From: Agelas oroides
Taxonomy: Eukaryota > Porifera > Demospongiae > Agelasida > Agelasidae
NCBI GenBank assembly: GCA_949130485.1
Contig: OX422193.1
Coordinates: forward strand, 3,102,371 to 3,166,370
Direction: 5' to 3'
DNA length: 64,000 nucleotides
Positions 4,141 through 61,200 of this stretch are shown here, piece after piece (the stretch's first letter is position 1; every line of letters begins with the position of its first letter). The translations under genes were made by a program, and so were the position numbers. A model generated the notes under the pieces. It had not been told where the DNA came from and ran no database searches. It saw only the letters and a list, made by a program, of their open reading frames with translations.

Positions 4141-5161
4141 GTGGCATTCTGGCTTGTATCCATGCACCTGTAGAGTGAACGAAGGGTATTCTACAACAGG
4201 TGTAAGTCGTGTAGTATTCAAGTGTACCATAGATGAGCTGAAGTTTTGCTGGCATTGAAGGTATAGGATAGGAAGTGTGTACATGCATGGATGAATGGTC
4301 AGTATAGCCTTGTAGGTACCTGAATCAAGAATACCTGAGTTCTCAAGTGCCAGTGATTGGAAAGTGTTCAGGTTTGGTCTCTTCAGTGGTCCTAGTCTGG
4401 AACCAGAAAGAAAACTGCCACCATTGAACTACCATGAGTAGTGACAATGGTGCAATCAATTCCAAGATGAGTTTCCAGTGTGTTTTTTTTTTGGTATATT
4501 TTACATAGCTGTCAAAGGAGCTGCTGCATGCTTGCATGATTTTCTTCAAAATTGACAATAACTGTACAAAAGTGTAAATTGTGACTAGCTTTTACCCCCT
4601 CCACATATATACATGCAGCTATTGGCACCACTTCGACACTTCAATTCACCTGCTATTGACCTTCTGCAGTAGTCCATGTTATTTAGACAAATCTACGATG
4701 TTGCTTTTTCTGTTATGCTAAATCTGCAGAACAAGGCGTATATTTCCGCGTCAACGTTAGTAAACCCCTTATGGCGCATGCACTCGCACTCTAGTCTCGT
4801 TCCAAGACCGCATTTTTCGCGCGCGCCCGCCGGAAAAAAGGGTCTGCCTATTCCGTTTTCGTTCAAGTGCGCCGGAATGCTGGCGCATTGTTCTTTTCTA
4901 ATTTAACGCTTGACGTCATCGAAGATTTCATTCCACAATGTATGCCAACGATCTGCTAGCGAAATGGACATTGATCGGGCAACCCTATCTGCCGTGAGTA
5001 GACTAGGCTATTGTATCTATCGAAAGGAGCACCAGTAGGCTGTCTAGGAGTTTGCTGTTTACTAGAGCGCTTTTGAATTCACAATCTAGTTGACATGACG
5101 TCACGGTAGTTTCAAAACATTGGAACCAAAACGGTATAGGCAGTTCACCAGACTACTTTCC

Positions 5162-5415
5162 TATGGAGCGCGGATGTGGACAAAATTGAAGATCGATGTC
5201 GAACGTCGATCAACGATCATCGACGTCGACATCAAACGTCGATGACCGATGTCGAACGTCGATCAACGTTCATCGATGTCGACATCGAACGTCGATGACC
5301 GATGTCGAACGTCGATCAACGTTCATCAATGACAATGTCGATGTCGAACGTCGGATCAATGATCGTCGATGTCGAACGTCGATCATCGTTCATCGAACGA
5401 TGGCCAATGTCGACC
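5162..5415. repeat. Left terminal inverted repeat with 53-bp CpG-rich array
   Basis: After about 33 bp of unique terminus, a 53-bp unit made of GTCGAACGTCGATCAACG-type words repeats from 5195, with starts at 5195, 5248 and 5301, and then decays to 5415. The density of TCGA and ACGTCGA palindromes is far above the surrounding DNA. The right end is the inverted counterpart. Such arrays are plausible transposase-binding sites, which is an inference. Confidence 0.9.
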
Positions 5416-5510
5416 TGGGAACGAGGCTATCAGCATCTGCTAGTCTCATTCCCAGATCAGAACGGGAATGAGACTGATCAGTGACACGTGTAGTCGTGCC
5501 TCGTGGTGCC

Positions 5511-8500
5511 ATGGATCAGTCGGAGAAGCTGCAGCAAGCCATTGATCTTCTTTCGTCTATCACTTCCTCCGACTCTTCCCAGTCATCCGCATCTGTTGCA
5601 CAACCGGGCCGTTCCTGTCATCCTCCCCAAAACCTTTTACCCAGAACCCGCAGAGGTATACACATTTTATAGTGGCTACATTCTAATACTCTCCACTTCA
5701 CCCTTCTATCTATAGTAACAGGTGTCTGTTGTGTGAAAGCCTGACTAATGGACCGCCCTGACTTTTGTGTGTCAACATTCATTCAGTAATCAAGTCTAAA
5801 CCACACCCCCAAATGCTCAGAAAGTAAATTAAGTCTGAACTGCACTCAAACATGCTCACTGAGCCTACAGTAACCTAGACTACAGGTTACAATATTTTTA
5901 AAAGATTTGCCAAGTGATATGAGGGTTGTGCAAACCTCAGGGAAGAGGCAGACATGACAGCTGACTTAATTTCCTACCTTACCTGGCAGATCAATATACA
6001 TGAAACATTTTTTTTCTTGCGGTGTAATTAATCAGCTGACAAAATCATGTGCCTGCATGCAAGTACCACAACCTGCACATGAAATTTGTATAGCAATAAT
6101 GTAATTTACAGACTACCTTTAATCCTGTCACTACAGGAGCAGGAATTGATGGTTCCTGTAGCCGTGCACTTCACGCTATCCGAGCTATTAGACAGCGCTT
6201 AGGGTCCAGTGATGTCGTAGCTGAGCAGAGGGCAAATTTTGCTCCTTATACTAAACCCTCAGCCTTAGGCAAAGGCCAGAATTGGACGGTGAAAATGGTC
6301 TGTCTCAGTAGCCATAATGCAACCAGAGTGCCATGTACTGTAGCTGACAGAGAAACCTTGGTGCAGGCGGGCTTGGGTGAAAAAAAGATCAGCATTCCAG
6401 ACATCAGCTGCTCTCCACAAGAGTTCAGGAATATTGTGGTGGCAGCATTTCCTAAGCTAGATGGATGTGGGGGCTTTGATCTTCTGCGCTGCATTCCCAA
6501 CACCAAAGATCTTGAGGCCATATCATTGGCAGTTTCCCAGTCCCCCAAGCTCCTGAAAAGTGTGGTGGGTGGTGGAAAAGTTTTCATCCGCCCAATCCAA
6601 CAAGACTTGGATTTGGACCTGGACAAGAAACTGATCGCCTCAGTTGAGGTTTGTGTGACATTAAGGACCAGCACACATATAAACTTGTGTCATATAACAA
6701 TGATCGTACTTGTAGGTTACAGAGAAGTGCATCCACTGCAAGAGGGAGGTGCCCATGCAAAGCTTACGGAAGCATGTGCAGGGTTGCAGGTTTGAAAGGT
6801 AAAATTAGCTCATTGTTGATGAGCAATAAGTATATTATGTCTGTGCTATAATTATTAAAGGCTCAAGACAACATTTGACTCTTCAAGTGATTCTGACTTC
6901 GAAGAAAAACCCATCCCCAAGGTTGCACACATTGCTATCTCATCTGATGATTCTGAGGTACAAGAAGTATGAGTATGTACCCTCAAATACTAGGCGTACC
7001 CAGTTGGATGCTTTGTCTCTCCAGCATGATGTAACCGAAACAGAAGAGGTGATGGTGGATCATGCAATTGCACTATCTGCTCCCTCTTGTTCCCACTCTA
7101 CAAGGTAAAATACCACAATTAATGTGCATGTATTAGGCTCTTAGGATGTTGATGCATACCTTTTTCTTGTCAGTAGTCAGGAACCACTCCATGTTGAGAG
7201 TCTCCAGGATGTTGTGAGGATGCTGTCTCAAAATGTACAGCACGAGACAATCACAATTCATATGAGAAGGGGACATGTACTTGAAGATGCCCTTCGTAGT
7301 GTCAGACGCAGAGGCTTTCCATTCACTCACACTGTGAAAGTAAGCATGCGTACTTATGAAAGTGAACTGATGATGGATTATATTGATTGTACGTGTATGA
7401 TTTATGTTTACGTATACCATCTCTGATTTTATTTCTTGTTATTGTCTAACAGACCAAGAAGTTCTGGTATGTTGGCCGTCTTATGGCAATGAGCTTGGTC
7501 CAAGATGGAAGTGGATTTCCTTACATGGCACCTCCGCTGTTTGAGTATTTGTGTGGGATGTCTACAATTGATGTGACCAAGGAGGATGTGCCTAGCTATG
7601 AAGTCCAACAGCTACTCCAGCAGGTATGCATGAAATTGGCATTGGATGAGTATAACTTCAGACAGCTCTTTAGCCGCCATGCTGACCAACAGCTTTGGCA
7701 ATAACTTCATGCTGTTACTCAGACAGGCATATATGCAAAGTATGTCACATTTTCAGTATTTAAGGTAGCATCAAAAGAGAAAGGCTTTCAGAAATGGCCC
7801 GGGTATCAGCCTACAGTATCTACATGTGGCACTATCTTAATTTGCTTGTTGCCTTCTTTTAATGTGACCATGTATTAGATTGAGGAAGCCACAGATGACA
7901 GAGCTTTGAAAAACGTGTGTTCAGAAGAAGTGGACCTAATTATGGAAGCTGGGTACACTAAGCCAGTAACTGCCATCACCATGACTGGCAAGGCAGAGCT
8001 CATGAATGTCCTGAAGTTTCATTACACCTTGTATCGCAATAAAGCAGTGCTAGACCAGTTAAAGTCTGGTCTGGATGTGCTTGGAGTCTTGGATGCGATG
8101 ATCCAGTGGCCAAGGATTCTGGAGCCATTCTTTGTAGGTGGGAAGCAAGGACCCCTCACTGCTGGTACGCATTTGTACTATACAACAGTACTATGTTATG
8201 TCCCACTCTGACTACTGTAACTTATGCCTCATGTAGACATGATCAAGAACATCCTCAAGGTAGTCCACTTCTCGGATGTTGGCACATCAGAGAGAGTCAA
8301 AGAGGAATCCACATACATGTTATTTCTTGATCTACTTCACCAGTGTGAAGGTATGACCATGTATTATGGTAGTATCATAGTACCATGCATAGTACAAGCA
8401 CATGATGTGATGTGTTACAAAATATACCATTTTTGCAGATGGTGAGGTCGCAGAGGTGACCCTTGAGCAAATCCTGAATTTTTTCACTGGTGCCAACTAT

Positions 8501-8683
8501 CCACCACCTTTGGGGTTTGATCAACCTGCTGCTCTGTGGTTCAGTCCACTTGCTGAGTTTCCATGTGCTTCTACATGTGCCTTGGAGCTTACACTTCCAA
8601 CAAAGTATCATGACAGCCCTGACATGTTTAAGGAGAAAATGATATATGCTTTGCTGAACCATGGAGGATTTGGATTGCTCTAG
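5511..8683 (+). CDS. Transposon-borne UBZ-like zinc finger/HECT E3 ubiquitin ligase
   Basis: Ten exons join in frame to a predicted 635 aa: 5511-5655, 6137-6648, 6716-6798, 6861-6966, 7025-7104, 7174-7339, 7453-7623, 7879-8164, 8237-8350 and 8439-8683. All have GT-AG borders; the 58-bp intron at 6967-7024 is the least certain. Residues about 224-243 form a C-x2-C-x11-H-x3-C finger with the spacing of RAD18-type UBZ ubiquitin-binding fingers. The part after about residue 309 is HECT: KKFWYVGRLMAMSL in the N-lobe, then the C-lobe with Cys601 in ASTCALELTLP and the terminal FGLL. HECT enzymes take ubiquitin from an E2 on this cysteine and pass it to substrates. The usual N-lobe segment with the GGPRREF-like loop is absent between exons at 7339 and 7453. 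It resembles G2E3-like genes of animals. Its role in transposition is unknown. Confidence 0.82.
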
Positions 8684-8906
8684 ACACTTACACATTGTTC
8701 ATGTAACCGCAGGGTGCGGCCAAGCATGCATATCTTGAGTTGTTACTGCCTGTTGCAGTTGGCATGTGTCAGCATATTATACTGCCTATGGACCTGTGTC
8801 AGCATATTGTGAATTAAGTGTTACTGCCTGTGAGTGTATGTTTCCTCTAAATGGTTTGACGTCACACGACATTGTGATAAAAATTACATGTGATCAATAT
8901 CAATAA

Positions 8907-10457
8907 CTACATACAGGCACTCATAAATGCACGTGTCATCAGATACAGTGAAATACCAAGGTCATCACACTGTTCTAATGGGTCCACAGCCTGCCTTAGT
9001 TCACTCCATTGTTGAGGAGTAAGGAAGTCGGGTGTATCAGGGACCTCCACAGTGTCTGTGGTAATTCCATTTGATAATGGCTCCTCCCAGTCAATCCCAT
9101 AGTATTCCTGAGGAGGAAAAGTATGTTGATTGCCAGTTTAGTACACCTGAAACTGCAACATCTATGTAACATGGACCTCCACATGCATGAGAATGGAGTT
9201 TTCACTTCATGCACAAAAACATCAATCATCTCTTACCAAGGCATCTCCCACAACACCCTGAACTGCTGCATCATCTCCAGATTCTTGACTGAATCCTCTT
9301 ATCCATAGCTGGTATGGGCTTCGATTTCTGGCTGTACGTAAACGATGGTGACCATATGCTTGCCGAAACTCATCAAGCTGGAGGTTGATACGAGGAATAA
9401 ATACATAGTGCAGAGCTAAGAGATCAGTGTCCTTTGAATCATCCAACCAACCACTGTCTTCTAGTGTGTAGAACAAATGGTAGAAAAGTGAAATGCAACC
9501 CATAAAAAGGTCTCTCCAGAGTCTTTCTATCCTCTGATTGTGAACACTTCGTCCGGTAATACAACTTCCACGTCCAGGCCCACGTTCTGGGTGACTCAGC
9601 ATGAATTCCGACACCCTCACGTTCTCACCTCCCCGATCGCATCTTACTCTTGAAGGTAGTCCATACCGCCTTACAGCATCCAGGAAGCAGGTTAGTACTG
9701 TAGCTGCTTTGTTGTTTGTAGAGGCTCGGAGGTACACAGGTAATCTGGAGTACCCATCTATTCCCCCATGAATGACAACACGCCACTTGATCAATTTGTG
9801 GTATCCGTCAATATGCCACAGACTGTTTGACATGCAGACATTGTAACGCCTCCGGTGGAGAGCTCGTCTAAATCGTGTCTCTATCCCTCTGGGGTCAATT
9901 CTCATGAGGCTGTCCCTGACCCTAGAACGTTGGATCCTTAGACCCATGCCCCTTAGGAACCCAGCAAGTGATCTCACACCTGAATTAGGGTGGGTGTCAA
10001 CAAACTGCCTTGTAACAGCATCAAGGTCTCTGTTATCAATCTCACTATAACAAGCCTCCTCCTGTAGCCCATACTGGAGAATTCTCCTTCTCACTGTTCG
10101 AGGACTAATACCTAACAAGTTTGCTATGTCACGATTTGAGAATTGAAGCTCCAGTAATGCCACAAGTTGCTCCTCGCTAATTGGAATTTGCGGTCGTCCT
10201 CGAATGTGCTGGAGGCGGCACGCATCTAAAAGTTGCTGAACATCTCTAACCACATTGACAATGGCCGCCACAATCACCTCACCTTCTGATGGTTGTAGAA
10301 TTCCCTCAACTAACACAACATCTCTAAGGAGCAGTTCTGCCTGCACCGAGATCCCTTCCACAGCATCCACATCATCTAAACAAGTATCAGCTGCATGCTG
10401 GATGCCTATAATAGCATCTTCAACTTCTAATAGGAAATCTTGTAGTTCCTGGTCCAT
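8907..10457 (-). CDS. Integrase-core (rve-type) DDE transposase
   Basis: Two exons, 10457-9237 and 9107-8907, join in phase 0 across a GTAAGA donor and CTCCTCAG acceptor to give 473 aa. Residues about 100-130 form a helix-turn-helix (NRDIANLLGISPRTVRRRI). The RNase H-like core shows D217 (WHIDGYHKL), D274 (RCDRGGEN) and E311 (NQRIERLWRD), so all three catalytic residues are present with about 36 residues between the second Asp and the Glu. The C-terminal exon has YGIDWEEPL followed by an acidic tail. These proteins cut and join element ends, and the gene ends 223 bp from the convergent HECT gene. The start ATG lies just inside the right inverted repeat. No stop or frameshift was seen, so the enzyme may be functional. 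Confidence 0.9.
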
Positions 10458-10546
10458 GTGTCACTTTTGCTGTTTTCAGTCTCGTTCCCGATCTAGAGAA
10501 TAGGACAACCTTACCCATTCCCAAACCAGCGATTCGTTGCTTGACA

Positions 10547-10761
10547 TTGACGTCGGTCAACGATCAACACATCGACGATCGTCGAAATAGTTCATCGACG
10601 TTCGACATCGACATCGATGAAAGTTGATCGACGTTCGACGTCGACATCGATGAACGTTGATCGACGTTCGACATCGGTCATCGACGTTCGATGTCGACAT
10701 CGATGATCGTTGATCGACGTTCGACATCGATCTTCAATTTTGTCCACATCCGCGCTCCATA
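10547..10761. repeat. Right terminal inverted repeat of the HECT-integrase transposon
   Basis: This is the inverted complement of 5162-5415: the same 33-bp terminus followed by GTCGA-rich words in the same order. Left and right arms differ by small indels and substitutions, mostly toward the inner side. Confidence 0.9.
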
Positions 10762-10800
10762 CTTTCCCGCTCGGCGAAAAGTTGTCTGGGCACGAGACTA

Positions 10801-10980
10801 CATGCACTCTGCATGGGCGTAGATACGTACTGTTTCTTAAAATGGTGGGTTAGCTTCCACGCAATGGTCTAGTAAGTGTTTAAATACTAAGACGACTTAC
10901 CTCTTTAGCTCGAACTTACGTAACATTTGGACCTGAATTCACTTCCGGCATTGAACCCAGCCCTTCGCCCGCGGATTATT
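10801..10980. repeat. Right edge of block D1
   Basis: The sequence from CATGCACTCTGCATGGGCG onward matches 37090-37268 and, after the Ginger insertion there, 39336-39370. The first 80 bp also match D3 (52293-52372). The word CACTTCCGGCATTGAACCC is the unoccupied target site for the Ginger-like element near MT3. Confidence 0.9.
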
Positions 10981-11016
10981 GTCCATTTTAGCCTCTGCAC
11001 TCGCGAGCGGGAAATA

Positions 11017-11832
11017 ATGAGCCGCAGCTCGAGCAAGAAGAGACGAGGACGACCGCGATCACACTCAGCCCCTGCTCTTCTTAGAAGCCCAAGGAAAGTG
11101 AAGAAACGTAAGCAGTGGTCAGAAGCATCAATGCCAACGGCTATTGAGGCTGTAAAGAACGGTACTGCCATTCTTCGAGCTGCTCGAGAGCACGGCGTGC
11201 CAAGATCCACGCGTAGTGATAGGATTTCTGGAAGAGTTGTTCATGGCACAAAACCAGGGCCTAGTCCCTACTTAGCGGCTGCTGAAGAAAAAGAGTTGTC
11301 ACTCTTTCTCATTGATACAGCAAAAGGAGGCTATGGAAAAACTCGAAAGGAAGTAAAAGGACTGGTTGAGAAAGTTGCTCGGGTTAAGGGTGTGTTGAAG
11401 AAGTCTGAGGTGACCGATGGGTGGTTTAGAAGATTTCTAGAAAGGCAGCCTACTCTCTCCCTTCGAAGGGGTGATGCCGCTCGACTATCGTGCACCGAGG
11501 GTTGTGACAAAGAACACTGCATCTGGTCCTACATCTAAGAAACGTAAGAATTCCTTAGAAAGTTGTCAATCTGCTTTAGGATCTACCACAGCTGTGACAT
11601 CTTTAGCGACAGCATCTGTCACCACCAAGGGGAGAAAGAGTAGTGAAGTGATTGATAAAAATCAATGTTGTATATGCTATCGCAGTTTTGCTGATGATGA
11701 AAGAGAAGAAGCTGGGGTTTAGAGTGGGTGGAATGCATTTGTACAAGGTGGCTTCATGAAGAATGTATTGATTACAACATAGAAGTTAATGCAGATGGTA
11801 GAGAATTGCTCTGTCCTTATTGTGTTCTTTGA
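11017..11832 (+). pseudogene. pogo/Tigger-like transposase with the DDE core deleted
   Basis: From ATG 11017 the frame encodes a basic, AT-hook-like start (KKRRGRPRSH), a psq-type helix-turn-helix around AIEAVKNGTAILRAAREHGVPRS and a CENP-B/Tc5-like helix-turn-helix ending LERQPTLSLRRGDA. The catalytic DDE region is missing. About 30 bp later, in another frame, comes the C-terminal tail ending in a Cys/His finger (NQCCICY, then ECICTRWLHEECID and LLCPYC), with a further frameshift near 11720. The protein is therefore an internally deleted, inactive derivative. Flanking domains are unusually well preserved. The element lies between block D and MT1. Confidence 0.72.
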
Positions 11833-12927: not shown

Positions 12928-13251
12928 ATCTTTGAAAATACCCTCTGAACCCATTATTTCGTTCATCCTTTATCCTTTATCTTCTCAGAGTTCTATATAT
13001 ATATGCATATGCTGCTTATTTTGTTATCGTTTTTTTGGAAAAAAAAAATGTATACTGGACAGCGCGCTTTGTTGTTTACGAAATTTTCGCTACAAACCGG
13101 AAATCGCTAAAGACTTGCAAAACGCTGTCATTTAAAAAGCCGAAGACGACGACTCTATTGGTGGTTGTTTGAAGTTCGTTCCTGAGGTTGCAACGCTACA
13201 ATTCAGGCAAACATGTGTGTCGATAATTGGCGGCTTACGCTACTAGTAGCA

Positions 13252-13976
13252 ATGTCGCACAACACAACCAAATTCAGTAGCGCCAAGTTGGAGGGCTTGA
13301 GTGATGGTGACTCCTCCTTAGAGTTAGCAAAGTTTTACTCTGAAGTATCTGATTTACAGAAAGAACATGGGAAGGAATTGATTGGAAAGCTTTCACTTGC
13401 TAAGAACATGAAGATTCTTGACTTGGGTTGTGGTACTGGCTATCTTTCTGCTTTACTGGCTGACTGTGTGGGTCCAGAAGGAAAGGTGGTTGCAGTTGAC
13501 CCGAACAAGAGTCGACTTGAGCTTGCAAAGAAACACTACTCAAGATCTAACCTGCTGTTCCTTGAAACAAGTGATGTAACATTTCCTGAAGATCAGTACG
13601 ATTTGGTGTTTTCAAATTACGTTCTACACTGGATAGAGAACAAGGCTGAACTTTTTAAAAGAGTTTATGAGAATCTCAAACCAGGAAGTCAGTTTGCATT
13701 CGGTGTGAGTGACCAACAACCTACAATTGTTGAGCAGATGGACACCCTGATGGGTCCAGAATGAAGCACTGTTTTCATTGGATGTCAGCTTCAAAATACA
13801 ACCATCTTGCTACTGCTGTTGGATTCAAAGTGACATATAGTGTTGTTCAAAATAAACCAGTCCATTTTGAAAATATTGAGAGTCTTATGCGATTTTATCA
13901 TGCTTCAACAGATGGACAATTTAACCCAGGGAAGATAGAGCCTGGGAGTGGCAATTATTCTTACGAGTCAATATGA
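13252..13976 (+). pseudogene. Methyltransferase MT1 (type I copy), frameshifted and 3'-deleted
   Basis: The frame starts at ATG 13252, in the same AGTAGCAATG context as MT3 and MT5. It carries SAM motif I (LDLGCGTGYL), the acidic motif II end (VAVDPNKSR) and motif IV (DLVFSNYVLHWIE). A one-base deletion near 13760 (CCAGAATG against CCAGAAATG elsewhere) shifts the frame. The distal part then continues in another frame to 13976. Relative to MT3 the last 33 codons are replaced by downstream sequence. The join lies at the word GAGCC, which occurs twice in the MT3 region (40071 and 40393), implying a 322-bp deletion through microhomology. The intact family size is 261 aa. Confidence 0.9.
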
Positions 13977-24072: not shown

Positions 24073-24195
24073 ACACTTTCACGTTTTTTCCACTTGCCCA
24101 GTTGTTTTGTGTATTGTGTGCTCGCGTTGGTTTTGCGTATCCTACTGTCTGCGGTTTTTTGGAGGAGCGTTTCCGTTCGAGACTAACTTGTAGCG

Positions 24196-24981
24196 ATGTC
24201 GTGCAACACTACCAAGCACAGCAACACTAAGTTGGAGGGCTTGAGTGATGGTGACTCCTCCTTAGAGTTAGCAAAGTTTTACTCTGAAATATCTGATTTA
24301 CAGAAAGAACATGGGAAGGAATTGATTAAGAAGCTTTCACTCGAGAAGAACATGAAGATTCTGGACTTGGGTTGTGGTACTGGCTATCTTTCTGCTTTGT
24401 TGGCTGACTGTGTGGGACCGGAGGGAACAGTGGTAGCAGTTGATCCCATCAAGAGTCGACTTGAGCTTGCAAAGAAACAGTACTCAAGGCCTAACCTGGT
24501 GTTCCTTGAAGCAAATGATGCAACCTTTCCCGAAGATCAGTACGATTTAGTGTTTTCAAATTGCGTTCTGCACTGGATAGAAAATAAGAATGCAGTTTTG
24601 AAAAGAGTCTATCAGAATCTCAAACCAGGAGGTCAGTTTGCATTCAGTGTAATTGCCCATCAACCTACAATTGTTGAGCAGATGGACGATCTGATGGGTC
24701 CAGAAATGAAACAATGTTTTCATTGGATGTCAGCTTCAGAATACAATCACCTTGCTACTGCTGCTGGATTCAAGGTGACATATAGTGTTGTTCAAAAGAA
24801 ACCAGCCCATTTTGAAAATATTGAGCATCTTATCCAAGTTTATTGTGGTTCAACGGAAGGACAATTTAACCCAGGGAAGATAGAGCCAGCCATACTGGAC
24901 GCATTTAAAAAACCTTTTGGTGATAGGCCCGTTGACCTTGATGATTTTCATCGAGTGACAATTATTCTTACCAAATTTTGA
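24196..24981 (+). CDS. Class I SAM-dependent methyltransferase MT2 (type II, intact)
   Basis: An uninterrupted, intronless 261-aa frame. Residues about 54-63 are motif I (LDLGCGTGYL), which binds SAM. VVAVDPIKSR carries the acidic residue contacting the SAM ribose. DLVFSNCVLHWIE is motif IV, followed by the LKPGGQFAF post-motif turn. The overall pattern is that of small-molecule methyltransferases of the trans-aconitate/BioC/arsenite type (Methyltransf_11/25); the substrate cannot be inferred. No signal peptide or membrane segment is seen, so it is likely cytosolic. The start is fixed by conservation with the MT4 start (TGTAGCGATGTCG). This is the only copy whose upstream region is not broken by a close insertion. 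Absence of introns allows either a retroposed or a bacterial origin, neither shown. Confidence 0.93.
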   Translation: MSCNTTKHSNTKLEGLSDGDSSLELAKFYSEISDLQKEHGKELIKKLSLEKNMKILDLGCGTGYLSALLADCVGPEGTVVAVDPIKSRLELAKKQYSRPNLVFLEANDATFPEDQYDLVFSNCVLHWIENKNAVLKRVYQNLKPGGQFAFSVIAHQPTIVEQMDDLMGPEMKQCFHWMSASEYNHLATAAGFKVTYSVVQKKPAHFENIEHLIQVYCGSTEGQFNPGKIEPAILDAFKKPFGDRPVDLDDFHRVTIILTKF

Positions 24982-26924: not shown

Positions 26925-29700
26925 TTAAAAGCAGAAACAGATGGAGCAGTTACATGTTGTTGGTGCAGTGAACTTCCATGCAGAAATTGTGTGTGGTACA
27001 AAGGAGTAGAAGTAAGCATTTGTGTGAGCATAAGGTTGATCAATTACAAGGGAGTGATTAGTTCTGAGACTATAATTAGTATGAGGACAAAGAATATCTG
27101 AGGGGAAGTAGCACATACCATGAACAATCTTGTAGAGCAAGGAAAGTTTAGCTGGAGTCTGCGATCAGCAACAGATGGTACATTCATAATGTCAAGGAGT
27201 TCCTGGTATCCTGAGTCCCATTGTTTGGTGGCCATCCGAAATGCAAATTTTTGGACATCCTCGAGGAGCACTTTATCTTTCATTGTGTGAGGGTCCCATA
27301 CTGGGCATGCATACTCCAAATGAGGTCTTATAAGTGACAGATAAAGTTGTTTGAGTGTGTCACCTTCTGCGTGATTGTAGAATCTCCTGTACAGCAGCCC
27401 TAGAATTTGTTTAGCTTTGGAACACACTGACGTAATGTGTGGGGTCCAGGAGAGATCAGAGGAGAGAAGTACACCAAGAACATTCCACTTCGTTGAGGTG
27501 CAAACCATTCAGCATTAGTGGGTGAAGTGGGGTGGTTGGAAATATTTTCCTAGATAGCATCATATAACTACATTTTGATGTGTTGAAGGTTAGGTGATTA
27601 TCCAAGACCCACTGTTCAATTGCCATAATGTCCCTCTGAAGAGTGGTAAAATCCTCCTGCTGAGAAATCGGGTGAAATAGCAGAAGATCATCTGCATACA
27701 AAACAATTTTGGTGTAGCTTGAGATCGGGATAGAAGTAATGCCATCAATATATATAAGAAAGAGGAGAGGGCCAAGGACTGACCCTTGTGGGACTCCTGA
27801 TAGTACTGGCATACTTTCAGATGTAGCGCCATTGACTACAACCTTCTGAGATCTGTTAGTTAAATAGCTGGAAATCCAGACCAACAAATGGTAGGGGACG
27901 CCCATCTGCTGCAGTTTAGTTATCAATGGCCTGTGTGGGACACAGTCAAAGGCCTTTTTGAGGTCAAAAAATACTGCACAGATCTCCTTCCCTTCCTCAA
28001 GTCGCTGGAACCATTCATGAGTAGTTGTCAATAGGGCTGTAACAGTTGATTTCCCTGCAGAGAACCCCCACTGTGAATTAGACAGGGGGTGGTGTGGGCT
28101 AAAATGTTCAGTAAGTATTTTATGCACGTGCCTTTCCAGTAACTTACTGAGCACACTCAGAAGGGAAATTGGTCTGTAATTATTGGGAGAGCCTTTATTG
28201 TTGTTTGACTTGGGAATTGGCACAACCAGAGATTGCTTCCACTCACTAGGTATGTGGCCTGTGCGCAGAGACAAATTAAAGAGTTTCATAATCAAAGGAG
28301 TGATACTTGTAGCAGTGTGTTTCAGTGTTCTAGCAGAAATCCCATCTGGGCCATTGGCTTTTGTGACATCCAGGGAGGACAAAAGCTGGTAGACTTCTTC
28401 TTCATTACACAAAATCTCCTCTGGACATTCTTGGGGTGATTGTAAATTGTGATATTCGGATGGAACCAGGGGTGAGTGTGACAAGTTGTAGCAAGAGGAG
28501 AAAAAGAATTTAGAAGGTCAGCTTTTCCAATGTCTGTTTGCACAGTTGCATCACCATGACTCAGAGTAGGTATTGAGCATTTGCTTTTGTTAAGATATTT
28601 CATGGCTTTCCAGAACTTTGTCGGATTTTTAGGGTTCAGGTTACTGAAGTATTCTCTCTTTGCCATGCGTAACTTTGATACTACTCTGTTGCGTGCAAAC
28701 TTATACTTTGTAAAGTCACCAGACTGCTTAGCCTTCTTGTATAGCTGATTCCTCTTTCTCATTGCACAAATGAGATTCTTATTCAGCAAGGGGAGATTTT
28801 TACGTGGGGGGAGGACCCCTTTAGGTATACAATCCTCGATTATACTCATAAACTGCTGTTAATTGCCAGTTAGACCAAGACAAATTGATATCATCAGAAC
28901 ACAGTGAGTCCCAATTTGTGTTGTCAATGAGCTCACATGCTTTCTCCCAATCAGCATAAGCATACCTCCAAATGAGACGTCTGCTGGAGTGGACTCCGCT
29001 ACCAGTACCTTTCCATTTCATTGTCGTGAGGAGTCCATTGTGGTCTGAATTGAGTAAAGGGGGAACTGTCACACATGAGAGAAGTGAGGCTGGATTGGAT
29101 AAGAATACCAGGTCAATTATGGATGTGCTGCCATTGTGGTGTACATGTGTATACTCTGTTACAATTTGTGTCAAACAATAAGTAGACATTATGTTACACA
29201 ACTTAGAATATAAAGGATGAGAAGAGCTTACAAAATTAACATTTAAAATCTCCAAGCAAAATAAAATTAGAATACTGGGCAGTATTGAGTGACTCAAAAA
29301 TAACTGAAGAAGAACTGGGAGGTCGATAAAAAAGTGAAAGGCAAGCTTTACAATTTCCACTTTGTACACAAATAGTAATGATTTCCAGATCAGTGGGGGC
29401 ACCAGGCAGCACTGAAGTGATGTAGCTCTCCTTAACATAAATGAGGATGCCTCCACCATGTCTATTTCGATCATGACGAAAGATATTATAGTTTGGAATT
29501 GCAATTTCCTGGTCTCTAACATCATGGCCCAGCCAAGACTCTACAATGCAGACAACGTCAGGAAAATTGTGAGCTTCAATTGTTACAGATAGATCATCCA
29601 ACTTAGGGAGGAGACTCCTTGCATTATAGTAGAGTATCCTAAGACTATCAGACTTTATCACTTTTGCCTTGTTTACAGATGGCCCATTGTTTACATACAC
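26925..29700 (-). pseudogene. LINE ORF2 (endonuclease and reverse transcriptase), frameshifted
   Basis: Reading from 29700 down: an APE-type endonuclease (ILYYNARSLLPKLDDL, VCIVESWLG, RHDRNRHGGGILIY) with a frameshift at the LLGDF motif. A linker follows (28849-28530). The reverse transcriptase comes next, from about 28484: PDGISARTLK, NYRPISLLSV, FDLKKAFDCVPH, GVPQGSVLGPLLF and the catalytic YADD box. It ends with a thumb segment (27508-27044) and a C-terminus in a third frame to 26925. At least four frameshifts interrupt what should be one frame of about 900 codons. The order APE-RT and the motifs place it in the Jockey/CR1/L2 group. In unit 2 the flanks (46944-47093) are contiguous, so the LINE is private to unit 1. 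Confidence 0.88.
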
Positions 29701-37268: not shown

Positions 37269-39335
37269 TGTCAGAGGCGTGAATGACTCCCCGGCGTGAG
37301 TGACTCCCCGGTCATTGACGCCTAAGGCGGAAGTGACTCCCCCCTGGTGGGAATGACTCCCGTACGGCCGTACCGAACGTGGATGATGCGGCCGCTACAA
37401 AACAGACGGGCAGTGATGAGGTGTCATTTTCCGAGTATGGAAGAGTTTCAGACAGAGCTGAGTGTGGTGGAGGAGTACCTATTACGAGGAACTTATCCCG
37501 ACGGATTCTCAAAGGCGGACAAGGCGAATCTGAGGCGAAAATGTAGAAACAATTTCAAGATAGAAGATGGCGTGCTACACTACAGGAAGAATGGTGGAAG
37601 CGAGAAGGAAGAAGATCACTGGCGCATCTGCGTCAGATCAGTGGAGGAAAAGGGTCGCATTCTTGAATCATGCCATTCTGGAGTTGCAGGTATGATAAGT
37701 TGCCAGATATATATTCGCTGTAGCTACATCATGATTGTCCACGTCATGCAAAGTATTCCTTTTGTGTTTCATCTATATCGATGTAGGTAGTCATCTAGGC
37801 AGAGACAAGACAGTGGAAAAGATCACATCACGCTTCTTCTGGCGCAACATGAACGAAGAAATCAGGCAGTTTGTGCAAAACTGTGACAAGTGTCAGCGGA
37901 TGAATGCAAAGTTTGTTAAAAGCAATGCAAAGCTGCACCCAATTCCTGTCGCAGCCAAAGTCTGGCATCAAGTGAGTTAATTGTTATTTTGACTGCTGCA
38001 TGTATATATCTAGCTACATTCACAAATGTGTTGATTTTATCTCTCTACATGCAGGTAGGGATAGATATGATTGGGCCACTGCCTCTGACAAAGTGTTTAA
38101 ATCTGATCAAGATGTTCTGATTCATGGGAAGGAGCTGACAGATGCACTCATTGATGCTGCTCAAAACCTTCTTAGGAAGAATTACCCGCGTATCAATGGA
38201 TTGCAGCCTCCATCTCTTGCACCACTGCTCCAGTTCAACCCAACACCCACTCGGGCTGTTCAAATTCATCACACCGGTAAGTCTGCATGAGCTCTGAAAC
38301 CAGGATATAATATTTTAATGTGTCTCTCTACGTACTTCAAACTATATGGTGTTCTTGTTTAGGACAAAACCACTGGGTGTGCACCTCTAACGTTGGAGCC
38401 AAAAGGGGAGAAGTATTGGTGATGGACAGTCTGGCAATGCAAATACCTATCAACAGATCTATGATCCTCCAGATGGGGCAGATTTATCGAGCACCAAATA
38501 ATCACTCCACAATTTCAGTAAAAGTCTTGCCTGTTCAGCAGCAGAATGGATATAGAGATTGTGGGCTATTTGCCATTGCCTTTGCCACTGAGATCTGCAG
38601 GGGTCAAGACCCAAGCAGAGCAGTGTTCATCCAAACACAGATGCGGGGACACCTGTTCAAATGCCTTACCAAGAGAAACATGATGCCTTTCCCTCAGTTT
38701 CCACAGCAAGAAAAGGCAACACTGCCTCCGCAAATAGCTCTCCGACCACATGTGAACACAATACATGTGACAGTGCACTGCATTTGTCGTATGCCAGATC
38801 ACTATGACACAAACATGGTCCAATGCGAAGCATGCGAAGGATGGTACCACTACTCTTGCATGGGAATCAAAAAAGAGAGAGATATTCCAAAGGTGTGGAA
38901 GTGTGGCTATTGCACACAGCAGCAACTGGACATTCAGCCTGAAAAGCCAATTGAGTTTCAATCGAAGTTTCCTGCAGCCAAGAGACAGCGAGTAGCATAA
39001 TGTGTTGTAGTGTAATATACTGTTATTATTCTAATTTTGCCAGATTTGTTGTCATTGTAAAATTATGTAGCTATATCATATGCATTAACATCGTTTTAAG
39101 ATATCTCCGTGTGTGCATGAGACAATTATACCTAGGCGTGAGTGACTCCCCGAAAATTGATACGTAGGCGTGAGTTACCTAGGGGAGTCATTCGCATCCG
39201 GGGGGAGTCATTCACGCCTAGGCAAAAATGTTCGGGGAGTCATCCACGCCCAGGCGTCAGTGACCGGGAGTCATTCACGCCTAGGCACCAGTGACCGGGA
39301 GTCACGTACGACGGGAGTCATTCGCGCCTATGACA
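37269..39335. mobile_element. Ginger1-like DNA transposon, internally deleted
   Basis: Termini TGTCAGAGGCGTGAATGACT and its inverted partner TGTCATAGGCGCGAATGACT are flanked by CCGG on both sides (37265-37268, 39336-39339). The homologous site in unit 1 (10944-10950) has a single CCGG, proving the insertion. Both ends hold further copies of GGCGTGARTGACTCCC in either orientation. A 4-bp duplication, TGT termini and Gypsy-like integrase sequence with Ulp1 and PHD domains fit the Ginger1 group as I know it. Confidence 0.88.
37437..39000 (+). pseudogene. Ginger-type integrase/Ulp1/PHD protein lacking its catalytic core
   Basis: Exon 37437-37689 and exon 37787-37971 encode the N-terminus and an H2C2 zinc-binding domain (HLGRDKTVEKI then CDKCQRMN). 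The next exon starts at 38055 with the first core strand, GIDMIGPLP, normally the start of the DDE integrase. The rest of that core is missing and the frame jumps near 38092 to SDQDVLIHGKEL. This is a C48 cysteine-protease domain with His (GQNHWVC), Asp (VMDSL) and Cys (NGYRDCGLFA) in place, spanning an intron 38276-38362. A PHD finger follows (CICRMPD to WKCGYC) and a stop at 39000. Without the core it cannot catalyse integration. The protease and PHD exon from 38363 remains open. Confidence 0.85.
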
Positions 39336-39383
39336 CCGGCATTGAACCCAGCCCTTTGCCCGCGGATTATAGTACTAGTAGCA

Positions 39384-40169
39384 ATGTCGCACAATACAAC
39401 CAAATTCAGTAGCGCCAAGTTGGAGGGCTTGAGTGATGGTGACTCCTCCTTAGAGTTAGCAAAGTTTTACTCTGAAATATCTGATTTACAGAAAGAACAT
39501 GGGAAGGAATTGGTTGGAAAGCTTTCACTTGAGAAGAACATGAAGATTCTGGACTTGGGTTGTGGTACTGGCTATCTCTCTGCTTTACTGGCTGACTGTG
39601 TGGGTCCAGAAGGAAAGGTGGTTGCAGTTGACCCGAACAAGAGTCGACTGGAGGTTGCAGAGAAACACTACTCAAGATCTAACCTGGTGTTCCTTGAAGC
39701 AAGTGATGTAACATTTCCCGAAGATCAGTACGATTTGGTGTTTTCAAATTACGTTCTACACTGGATAGAGAACAAGGCTGCACTTTTTAAAAGAGTTTAT
39801 GAGAATCTCAAACCAGGAGGTCGATTTGCATTTAGTGTGAGTGACCAACAACCTACAATTGTTGAGCAGATGGACGATTTGATGGGTCCAGAAATGAAAC
39901 AATGTTTTCATTGGATGTCAGCTTCAGAATACAACCACCTTGCTACTTTTGTTGGATTCAAAGTGACAGATAGTGTTGTTCAAAATAAACCGGTTCATTT
40001 TGAAAATATTGAGAGTCTTATGCAATTTTATCATGGTTCAACAGAAGGACGATTTAACCCAGGGAAGATAGAGCCATCCATACTGGAGACGTTTAAACAA
40101 CCTTTTGGTGATAGGCCCATTGTCCTTGATGATTTTCATCGAGTGACAATTATTCTTACAAAATTTTGA
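39384..40169 (+). CDS. Class I SAM-dependent methyltransferase MT3 (type I, intact)
   Basis: Intronless 261-aa frame with motif I LDLGCGTGYL, VVAVDPNKSR, DLVFSNYVLHWIE and LKPGGRFAF, all expected for SAM binding. It is the only whole type I copy; MT1 and MT5 are broken. The start ATG is in the shared context AGTAGCAATG. A longer in-frame start at 39291 lies in transposon sequence and is rejected. A Ginger element ends only 48 bp upstream, so the original promoter has been moved about 2 kb away. Just after the stop a partial 3' duplicate of the last codons and flank appears at 40403-40432. The substrate is unknown. Confidence 0.92.
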   Translation: MSHNTTKFSSAKLEGLSDGDSSLELAKFYSEISDLQKEHGKELVGKLSLEKNMKILDLGCGTGYLSALLADCVGPEGKVVAVDPNKSRLEVAEKHYSRSNLVFLEASDVTFPEDQYDLVFSNYVLHWIENKAALFKRVYENLKPGGRFAFSVSDQQPTIVEQMDDLMGPEMKQCFHWMSASEYNHLATFVGFKVTDSVVQNKPVHFENIESLMQFYHGSTEGRFNPGKIEPSILETFKQPFGDRPIVLDDFHRVTIILTKF

Positions 40170-44966: not shown

Positions 44967-45753
44967 ATGTCGTGCAACACTACCAAGTACAGCAGCACGA
45001 AGTTGGAGGGCTTGAGAGATGGTGACTCCTCCTTAGAGTTAGCAGAGCTTTACTCTGAAGTATCTGATTTACAGAAAGAACATGGAAAAGAAATGATTCA
45101 AAAACTTTCACTTGAGAAGAACATGAAGATTCTGGACTTGGGTTGTGGTACTGGCTATCTTTCATCTTTGTTGGCTGACAGTGTGAGGCCAGAGGGGAAC
45201 AGTGTTAGCAATTGATCCCAACAAGAGTCGACTTGAGCTTGCAGAGAAACAGTACTCAAGACCCAACCTGGTGTTCCTTGAAGCAAATGATGCAACCTTC
45301 CCCGAAGATCAGTATGATTTGGTATTTTCAAATTACGTTCTACACTGGATAGAAAACAAGACTGCACTTTTGAACAGAGTTTATCACAATCTCAAGCCAG
45401 GAGGTCGATTTGCATTCGGTGTATGTGCCCATCAACCTACAATTGTTGAGCAGATGGACGATCTGATGGGTCCAGAAATGAAACAATGTTTTCATTGGAT
45501 GTCAGCTTCAGAATACAACCACCTTGCTACTGCTGCTGGATTCAAGGTGACATATAGTGTTGTTCAAAAGAAACCAGCCCATTTTGAAAACATTGAGCAT
45601 CTTATCCAAGTTTATTGTGGTTCAACAGAAGGACGATTTAACCCAGGGAAGATAGAGCCAGCCATACTGGAGGCATTTAAACAACCTTTTGGTAATAGGC
45701 CCATTGACCTTGTTCATTTTCATCGAGTGACAATTATTCTTACCAAATTTTGA
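44967..45753 (+). pseudogene. Methyltransferase MT4 (type II copy), single frameshift
   Basis: The frame starts at ATG 44967 as in MT2 and keeps motif I (LDLGCGTGYL). One extra G near 45193 (GAGGGGAAC against GAGGGAAC in MT2) shifts the frame just before the VAVDP strand. The remainder, from IDPNKSRLE to the end, is complete in another frame to 45753. This is the only disabling lesion seen in the coding part. The composite element ends 21 bp before the ATG. Confidence 0.9.
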
Positions 45754-58279: not shown

Positions 58280-61200
58280 TTAGTGATGTTCATATGCATT
58301 GGGTATTGTGATTATATAGTCATAGGAAGAATACTTAATAGGGATGTGTACACATTTAGTAAAAATGGAAGATACTGGAACAGCCACAGTCCTATTCGAC
58401 ACCGACAATTTCTTAACCTTGAATACAAAATTATTAATTGCTGCTGTCAGAGTCACATCCAATCCATCCAAAGTAGGATTAGGTAGGCAGGCCAGAGGAC
58501 CTTCAGTGGTTTGTTTGAAAATGTCTATGACCGCAATAGGTATGGTATCACAAAAACATAAAAGTGCAATGGATCCAAATTGTATTCCAGAGTTATGATT
58601 AAACGCACAGACAGAACTGCATTTCAGGGTCTTTTTCTGACTTTGACAGCTGAAGACAACCGGACCTTGTCTAACTCGACTAAAAACTGGAACTGAAACA
58701 TTGGGATTATAGTTCGCCTCAGTGAGGGCTGTCATTTCCTTCTCACTTAAACTCTTATGTTTCACACGACCAACTACTTGTGTTCTATCAGCAATCACTC
58801 GGTCACCTTTTGTTGCTGAGCTTGGGACGAGTGACTTGAGAAACGCAACTGTGGATGAGTTCTCAGATGCTTCTATTCTTTTTCCAACAAGTGGTAGCAT
58901 CTGCCGCATCCTAAAGTTGTGTATTAGCTGAGGTAGAACGTTCCTTGTCCCATGGATATGTTTTCGGAGGTGTCCGTTCATACTCTCGAACCCAAAACAG
59001 GAGTAACACCACAGAGGTCCCCATGCATACACGAACCGGCTCAAATGGAGAAGGCTGTGCATGTTCGCAGTGCACATCTCTAATGGGTACAGATTGGGAA
59101 TGAGATTGCAGAATGCATGTAGCAACTCATGAGCCTTTGCTACTTCAGTTACATCAATGCAGTCACTAAGCAGTAGGTGTAAGGCTGATACGAGCAGTGA
59201 TAGGTGATGAATATAATCTGGAGGTAGAAGATCCATTAGCACTGGTAGGGCGTAATACAACAGCAATGCCCGAAGCTCAGATGCCTTCCAGTACTTGAAC
59301 GTTGTGATGGATCTGGGTGTTCTTCTAAATTCATGAGGAGGCCTAATTCGGAGCAGCTTCTGATCGATAGTGGTGGTCTGGCGGCCAAGGTAATACCGGC
59401 GTGCATGATGCTTCTTGTCGAGCCAGAATTTCAGCAACGTCTTCATTACGCCTTCAAGAACAGCATGCATGTAATCCACTGGTACAGATGTCAAAATACT
59501 GATGTGTCTTGACAGGGCAGATTTGCCCTTGACTCCGTAGATTGGTTTCTTGGACATCTCAGCTTGTTCTGCCCATTGCCTCATGTTTCGTGATGTGCGT
59601 GGCTGGTGGTCTTCTTCAGGAAAGTATAGGTGGCGGTGAGATACGTGTAGTCCTTTGTCAAGGCAATATAAGCACCCATAGTTTCCGTTGAATTGAGTAC
59701 AGTTCGTAGCCATAGCTTTCGCTATCAAATCAAAGACACCCACCAACAAACAAGCCTTAACTCTCTTGGGTCCATCAGGTGTACGAACGTCCACACCACA
59801 GTGGTAGAGCTTATCAATTTTGTCAAGCACTGGCTGCACAATCTTGTCCATAACTGGCTTGACGGGACCCAACCAAACCCCAGCCAATAGAAGATAGTCA
59901 ATGTTCATCCGGATTTCTGGGGGAAAGTTTGCAATGGCAAGTTGGATGGGCCAGAGTGACTGACCACATGATTTGAAAAGCTGGACTCCATCAGAACACA
60001 AGATGAGACCCGCATGCTCAGGGAAGGAGAGGAAATTCCCTGGTTGCATGAGCTTTTTGTACTCTTTACCATCTTGAATATCCTGTATCTTGTTGTGGAT
60101 GATGTTCCGAGTGAACGGGTATTGAAGTTCGTTCCACTTCTCTGGAATGAGGAAAAAAGTTTATGTAACTCTGCATGTCTTGTGTTACTTTTTCTTGCTC
60201 CACTCTTTCAATGTGAAACGGAAACTTATGCAAATTAATAGCTAAGGACTTAGTACACATGCATAACGGCATACCTGAAAAGAGGTCTTTTATGTGCTCT
60301 TCAAAGGGTAGGATACTCAAATAGCACAGTTGGGCACCACTCTTCTTGCAGTCTCTCTTGCTGCAGTATTTCTGACAAGTGGGAACGTCTCCCATACAAT
60401 GAGAGCAGTACTGTAAACTGGTGCAGTTTTTCATGTTGCTGAGGTGCTTCTTGAGCAAGTATAGACTCTTTGGGCACAAATTTGGAGACGGGCAGTGAAT
60501 TCGAATCAGTTCCAGCAACTGGGTAGTAGCTTGATACGACAGCTTGTTTGATACTGCATACTGGTATATGGCATACCAACTTGCTTCCATGCTTAGAGGG
60601 GCGCCCGCATAAAGGGGAATGTTGAAAGTGTTACCAACACCTGTAACAAATAGAGGGAAGTAATTTTTCTCCATGGAACCATGGGTGCATGGAGGAAGGT
60701 TTGAGGAGCTCAATCAAGTAAGTGCTGTGCACCTAGGTAACAAATCCCTTTTTTAACTGGCAGATACATCTGTCAGTTAAAAGGGGTGTATTAAATATGT
60801 CCGCATGCCAGTTGAAAGGGGTGTGTTAGATACATATGAGTACAAATAACACTCACTGTATAATCAGGGTTGAGTGTTATACTCATAAGTAGCAATTGTC
60901 CATACTGGTATACCTGTGTAATTTTCTGTGTCACTAGGGATGCCATCCTCTGATCCACTGGGGAGAGGGTCGTGATCGCTGGGGTCCCCATCCTCTGATC
61001 CACTGGGGAGAGGGTCGTGATCGCTGGGGTCCCCATCCTCTGATCCACTGGGGAGAGGGTCGTGATCGCTGGGGTCCCCATCCTCTGATCCACTGGGGAG
61101 AGGGTCGTGATCGCTGGGGTCTCCATCCTCTGATCCACTGGGGAGAGGGTCGTGATCGCTGGGGTCTCCATCCTCTGATCCACTGGGGAGAGGGTCGTGA

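Follow-up and report, generated by a model that had tools for sequence, protein, structure and literature searches.

The window analysed here, a 64,000-nucleotide stretch of the genome of the sponge Agelas oroides (assembly GCA_949130485.1, contig OX422193.1, positions 3,102,371 to 3,166,370 of the forward strand), contains a transposon of 5600 bp at positions 5162-10761 whose TATGG..CCATA ends enclose two genes arranged tail to tail, one for a DDE transposase and one for a HECT E3 ubiquitin ligase. The same pair recurs elsewhere in the genome inside matching ends. We propose that this is a low-copy IS3EU-type element whose second protein is an E3 ligase directed against a host restraint on transposition, a reading to which we give an even chance of being right.

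The terminal inverted repeats (TIRs) are 135 nt long and 98% complementary to each other. The left one (5162-5296) begins with TATGGAGCGCGG and the right one (10627-10761) has CCGCGCTCCATA as its final letters. Subterminal tandem repeats are found at 5194-5327, with a 53-bp unit, and at 10589-10729. The letters on both sides of the element, at 5156-5161 and 10762-10767, read CTTTCC, and the ends scored 20/20 terminal bases and 6/6 bases of the target-site duplication (TSD). When the two flanks were joined and compared with the genome, 40 scored places (of 409 candidates) matched at 95-97% through the junction and represent the unoccupied target. CTTTCC was present as a single copy in the three empty sites that were fetched (3/3). 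The insertion of the element, with its 6-bp duplication, is established, and the 40 junction-spanning matches indicate that the target was a high-copy repeat. A TIR probe of the genome matched the window and two copies designated C7 only.

The transposase gene is on the minus strand and is predicted from two exons, 10457-9237 and 9107-8907, which together encode 473 amino acids. Exon 1 includes an integrase core of the rva_4 family (PF24764, Pfam E=6.1e-81) at residues 206-395 of its open reading frame (ORF), and a weak helix-turn-helix (HTH) at about residues 100-130 (HTH_23, E=4.3e-4, under its cut-off). Exon 2, a C-terminal extension, is predicted from splice sites and from similarity to the single-exon transposase of another element, L043. 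The presumed triad D217, D274 and E311 was invariant in all seven transposase sequences, taken from seven places. Inspection of the sequence by eye found no C-x2-C of an HHCC motif ahead of the core, no solved structure had sequence similarity to the transposase at E 0.01, and no relative in viral contigs was confirmed among 20 pattern matches.

The HECT gene is on the plus strand and convergent with the transposase gene. Its ten predicted exons (5511-5655, 6137-6648, 6716-6798, 6861-6957, 7025-7104, 7174-7339, 7453-7623, 7879-8164, 8237-8350 and 8439-8683) span 5511-8683, have GT-AG borders and keep the frame open for 632 amino acids. Pfam placed a HECT domain at residues 355-631 (E=5.9e-11), and Cys598 (codon 8576-8578) aligned with the catalytic Cys of the UBE3C C-lobe in an alignment that is weak by itself (E 0.036). 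This presumed catalytic Cys was found in 8 of 8 aligned sequences, the C2 row being a fragment, and was invariant among 6 in a separate set. The protein shares the TC catalytic motif of the C-lobe with HECT E3 ligases, of which UBE3C is the nearest solved sequence. It differs from host HECTs as a 632-residue protein with its own predicted beta-grasp domain and C2HC finger, and in its weak similarity to those that have been solved, as the UBE3C alignment illustrates. An earlier examination of this DNA from its letters and ORFs (hereafter, the sequence-only reading) had reported the ends and the CTTTCC duplication, two convergent genes, an open ten-exon HECT protein of 635 amino acids and a C-lobe with its catalytic Cys. 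The ends and duplication stood, and so did the convergence, the open frame of the predicted model and the C-lobe. The length was corrected to 632 residues, and the second transposase exon had been overlooked.

The recurrence of the pair was assessed over the 259 Mb of the genome, which contained at least 153 rva_4 matches. The pairing count used 80 of the 153, and the count of HECT loci used 84, secondary fragments and weak matches having been left out; none of the 31 matches with 200 bits or more was dropped, and the chance expectation was calculated from the full 153. A query with the 90-amino-acid C-lobe exon gave 34 genomic matches, 29 of them without an internal stop. Of the 34, 27 had an rva_4 match no more than 6 kb away, against 0.24 expected by chance, and the two were convergent in 26 of these close pairs and on the same strand in one. 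The same-strand pair (L024, C4:4920746-4922494, C-lobe match C4:4922270) lies at a place where no terminal repeats were found. The seven unpaired C-lobe matches comprise the two C7 copies, C14:4347276, whose nearest rva_4 match is 11.8 kb off, and four others. Seen from the transposase side, a C-lobe match was nearby for 19 of the 31 rva_4 matches scoring at least 200 bits. An added query with the HECT N-lobe of the C17 family revealed HECT also beside C1:31752843 and C4:3989765, raising the total to 21 of 31. In a genome-wide Pfam search, 97 HECT matches fell into 49 loci (15-kb clusters), and in 22 of these the start was no more than 8 kb from an rva_4 match. The two-gene arrangement is old and has been maintained in this genome.

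The ends were examined at 15 places, the window and 14 that were fetched. A strict TAYGG TIR scan of single 10-kb loci recovered the window only, and joining loci resolved three more. In total, both termini and a TSD were found at seven of the 15 places, six of which carry the HECT gene. The TATGG..CCATA termini are thus shared by the window element and six further elements. Five of these have both genes inside: C6b (3587827-3594240, TSD CAGAAC, 6/6), C13 (2369875-2376109, TSD CTCAGC, 6/6), C17 (5092116-5100720, TSD CGGGAA, 6/6), C1 (27559035-27564865, TSD GATAGT, 6/6) and C6a (4568007-4582113, TSD CAGTAC/CAGTAT, 5/6). The remaining one, L043 (C2:9276667-9282315, TSD GGGGCG, 6/6), is complete and IS3EU-like, with an open transposase frame of 472 amino acids and a convergent ORF. 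No terminal pair was found at the other eight places (the two C7 copies, C20, C4a, C4b, C2:9437, C9 and L039), and L039 had no credible HECT match within 7 kb. C6b and C13 share 98% identity along 6.2 kb at different sites with different TSDs, which indicates that such elements moved recently.

Comparison with these relatives revealed that the HECT gene of the window is not free of lesions, as the sequence-only reading had claimed for both genes. The C7 copies are about 96% identical to the window over the HECT gene and have about 200 bp extra between exons 6 and 7. In the C7 copy L017 the extra stretch contains an N-lobe exon with the motif GGPRREF. This motif is kept in five of the six other relatives scanned (C6a, C6b, C13, C17 and C1, with GGPLREF in C1), and its pattern had no match in the sixth, C9; a GGPxREF motif in the N-lobe is a further likeness of the window's relatives to HECT E3 ligases. 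In the window, intron 6 (7340-7452) was shortened by the deletion that took this exon. The ORF gives no sign of this deletion because the splice from exon 6 to exon 7 remains in frame. Since its N-lobe is incomplete, the ligase of the window copy is probably inactive, and this copy probably either relies on the ligase of a sister copy or makes no active ligase now. The C7 copies, L017 and L018 (C7:7987000-7996999 and 7887000-7896999), are truncated, nearly identical to each other and separated by 100 kb. Both cease to match the window element at window position 9107, exactly where transposase exon 2 is predicted to begin, possibly by coincidence.

The two genes have diverged together. HECT and transposase identities over seven families were correlated (Mantel r 0.84), and 6 of 5040 permutations gave a value as high; this test and the trees were made with the seven families, C4a, C13, C2 and C7 being left out. 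The HECT and transposase trees agree in placing C6b with C4b and C17 with C1. Comparison of nonsynonymous (pN) and synonymous (pS) differences shows the HECT gene to be under amino-acid constraint, as estimated from pairs of copies. Between C6b and C4b, pN was 0.21 and pS 0.74 for HECT (420 codons, 1 gap, no stops), and the corresponding values for the transposase were 0.19 and 0.73 (321 codons, 1 stop). Of the window HECT fragments in the pN/pS set, one could not be located and one more gave no match in C9.

IS3EU elements, as described in PMC10045372 and PMC12730594, have TA..TA termini (TAYGG..CCRTA in rust fungi), a 6-bp TSD and an integrase-like DDE transposase without the HHCC motif, in which the first catalytic D lies 100-300 residues from the N-terminus. 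The window element has TA..TA ends of the TAYGG..CCRTA form, a 6-bp TSD confirmed by its empty sites, and an integrase-type DDE core that lacks the HHCC motif and has its first D at residue 217. Judged by these termini, TSD and transposase domain type, it fits the IS3EU superfamily, from which it differs in its HECT second gene. A Ginger1/2 or retroviral-integrase type of element was also considered and is not supported by the TSD length, the termini and the absent HHCC motif. Neither HECT nor ubiquitin appears in the main text of PMC10045372 and PMC12730594. The latter describes fungal IS3EU elements with a TET/JBP gene between the transposase gene and an oppositely oriented alpha-kinase gene, and proposes that the TET enzyme aids escape from silencing. 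Accessory enzymes placed in this way are thus already known from IS3EU, and the accessory gene opposite to the transposase is common to the fungal elements and the window element. The enzymes themselves differ, a dioxygenase and an alpha-kinase in the fungi and a ubiquitin ligase here. A literature search, which did not extend to Repbase and Dfam entries, found no paper pairing IS3EU with HECT. Two with IS3EU and ubiquitin were unrelated to judge by title and start of abstract, and on that basis broader searches gave nothing relevant among the papers listed except PMC5638112; Repbase may already record such HECT genes.

The region of the HECT protein that precedes the HECT domain was analyzed separately. 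Exon 2 (6137-6648) encodes an N-terminal domain that was recognisable in six families, C9 being left out, although weakly (20-22% identity) in C1 and C17. In the best AlphaFold model the mean predicted local distance difference test score (pLDDT) was 72.9 and the predicted template modelling score (pTM) 0.61, and the other four models had values of 43-51. The order of elements in the model was strand-strand-helix-strand-strand-helix-strand, with extra short helices. The majority of the 50 Foldseek neighbours listed, of 317, carry domains of the beta-grasp type, among them USP7 UBL, SAP18, RA, FERM, PB1 and UFM1; no listed neighbour reached an E below 0.001. A search of solved structures by sequence returned three copper-chaperone sequences only (E 0.7-0.8). 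A ubiquitin-like beta-grasp fold, at about residues 98-201, is probable for this domain, and we hold it with moderate confidence.

Between this domain and the HECT region lies a finger, C-x2-C-x11-H-x3-C, at residues 224-243 (6728-6787). The sequence-only reading described it as a ubiquitin-binding finger, and its pattern, position and UBZ4-like spacing were confirmed: C-x2-C-x11-H-x3-C is the spacing of UBZ4 domains. From this arrangement came a model in which the protein not only writes ubiquitin but also reads it, by means of the finger and the beta-grasp domain. Recurrence of the pattern in five relatives (C6a, C6b, C13, C2 and C4b) and the placement of the finger would suit such a model. 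However, the UBZ4 identity was not supported by any search. Pfam returned no UBZ model, and its matches, among them TRAFD1/XAF1, zf_C2HC_14 and XAF1_C, all fell short of the cut-off. Foldseek with the predicted finger returned Sgf11, Kaiso, the FLN29 zf-TRAF and others with E above 1, and no UBZ structure among the 50 matches listed of 53. A profile search of the PDB gave Kaiso, ydaL and FLN29 at E 0.3 or more. Moreover, the Asp with which UBZ4 domains contact ubiquitin stands two positions ahead of their final Cys, and in the finger sequences this position is Q or E (HVQGC, HVQSC, HVEEC). Pattern scans of the C1, C17 and C9 families did not find the finger, and the sole match in C4a looks unrelated. 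By its pattern the finger is C2HC-like, in some families only, and we consider the reader-and-writer model improbable.

What the ligase does for the element can be argued from its company and its conservation. It probably has a function in the transposon life cycle. In the reading that we favor, the transposase would bind the repeats at the element ends and insert the element via 6-bp staggered cuts, while the protein with beta-grasp and HECT domains, and in some families the C2HC finger, would act in trans as an E3 ligase. The protein that it ubiquitinates would belong to the host, and a factor of silencing or repair that keeps the element from transposing is the most likely candidate. The linkage of the genes, the constraint on HECT and the analogy with the fungal IS3EU elements make this the likeliest role. 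The main rival, which we regard as rather unlikely, is that the HECT protein acts on its own transposase, either limiting its amount or clearing transposase with bound ends after strand transfer, and so works as a copy-number brake. The co-divergence of the two proteins would suit direct partners, and the family is low-copy as judged by the TIR probe; however, low copy number has many causes and some rva_4 elements have no recognisable HECT. Less likely still is a passenger status of the HECT gene, as a host gene captured long ago that renders no service to transposition. Such a passenger could explain the damaged HECT genes in several copies, including the window, and the weaker constraint on HECT than on the transposase in the window comparisons. 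It is at odds with the conserved position and orientation and with the constraint seen in every pN/pS comparison, which in C6b against C4b was as strong as that of the transposase. Chance proximity of two unrelated genes, or wrong boundaries, has practically no likelihood, being ruled out by the empty sites, by the shared ends with both genes inside TIRs and TSD in six elements, and by the excess of close pairs over the chance expectation.

Several observations weigh against the action on a host restraint that we favor. The sequence-only reading had held that related integrases lacking the HECT gene inside the same ends would point to chance linkage. The linkage withstands that test in this genome, where the pair recurs inside matching termini in diverged families, although for 10 of the 31 strong rva_4 matches no HECT match lies closer than 6 kb. 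One of these, the complete element L043, offers no more than a candidate for a diverged C-lobe, at E 0.059, which is under the inclusion limit, and with no Pfam match. The window HECT lacks the N-lobe exon that its relatives keep and therefore does not have a complete N-lobe, the HECT of C13 has one internal stop, and the C7 copies show frame-shifting differences near the HECT C-terminus and have no transposase core. The trees disagree on C9 and on the window relative to C6a. In the window comparisons (n=3), pN/pS was 0.42, 0.58 and 0.55 for HECT against 0.35, 0.40 and 0.45 for the transposase, and synonymous sites were saturated in all pN/pS comparisons. The low-divergence pairs, for which two window fragments were not found, gave omega values of 0.3-0.6 from few changes.

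If the ligase serves transposition, it would be a transposon-encoded E3 that points to a host factor restraining these transposons. The use of an E3 against the host is a tactic better known from viruses, and targets of a HECT-class ligase can be found by standard proteomics. The counts of HECT or "G2E3-like" genes in animal genomes may also be inflated by transposon genes, as the 22 of 49 HECT loci near rva_4 matches suggest here. G2E3-like genes are presumably among the closest HECT E3 ligases. Fish repeats that match G2E3 by blastx were reported in PMC5638112; in the passage concerned they are, as here, repetitive DNA encoding a G2E3-like ligase, and are neither classified nor tied to a transposase. 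They could represent elements of this kind, and they are a hint that the phenomenon is wider. A more tentative proposal, which we would put somewhat short of an even chance, is that the ligase with beta-grasp, C2HC and HECT parts was already the second gene in the ancestor of a large branch of IS3EU in animals and disarms a host defence or repair protein, in which case much of the HECT/G2E3-like expansion in animals would consist of transposon genes.

Other features were found in the window outside the element. An ORF with a Psq-type HTH (E 2.1e-6) lies just beyond its right end, at 10924-11538 on the plus strand. A plus-strand ORF at 38311-39000 has a Ulp1-type protease end (Peptidase_C48, E 7.6e-5) and a PHD finger (E 2.3e-8), and is possibly an accessory gene of another transposon. 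Mobile elements are also represented on the minus strand by an ORF of 626 amino acids with a Transposase_21 (tnp2 family) match at 58280-60160 (E 1.5e-12) and by a retroelement reverse transcriptase ORF at 27456-28517 (RVT_1, E 3.7e-38). Finally, four ORFs for S-adenosylmethionine-dependent methyltransferases (13186-13764, 24187-24981, 39285-40169 and 45187-45753, all on the plus strand) form a local array, their relatedness being judged by eye and the Pfam scan covering the first ORF.

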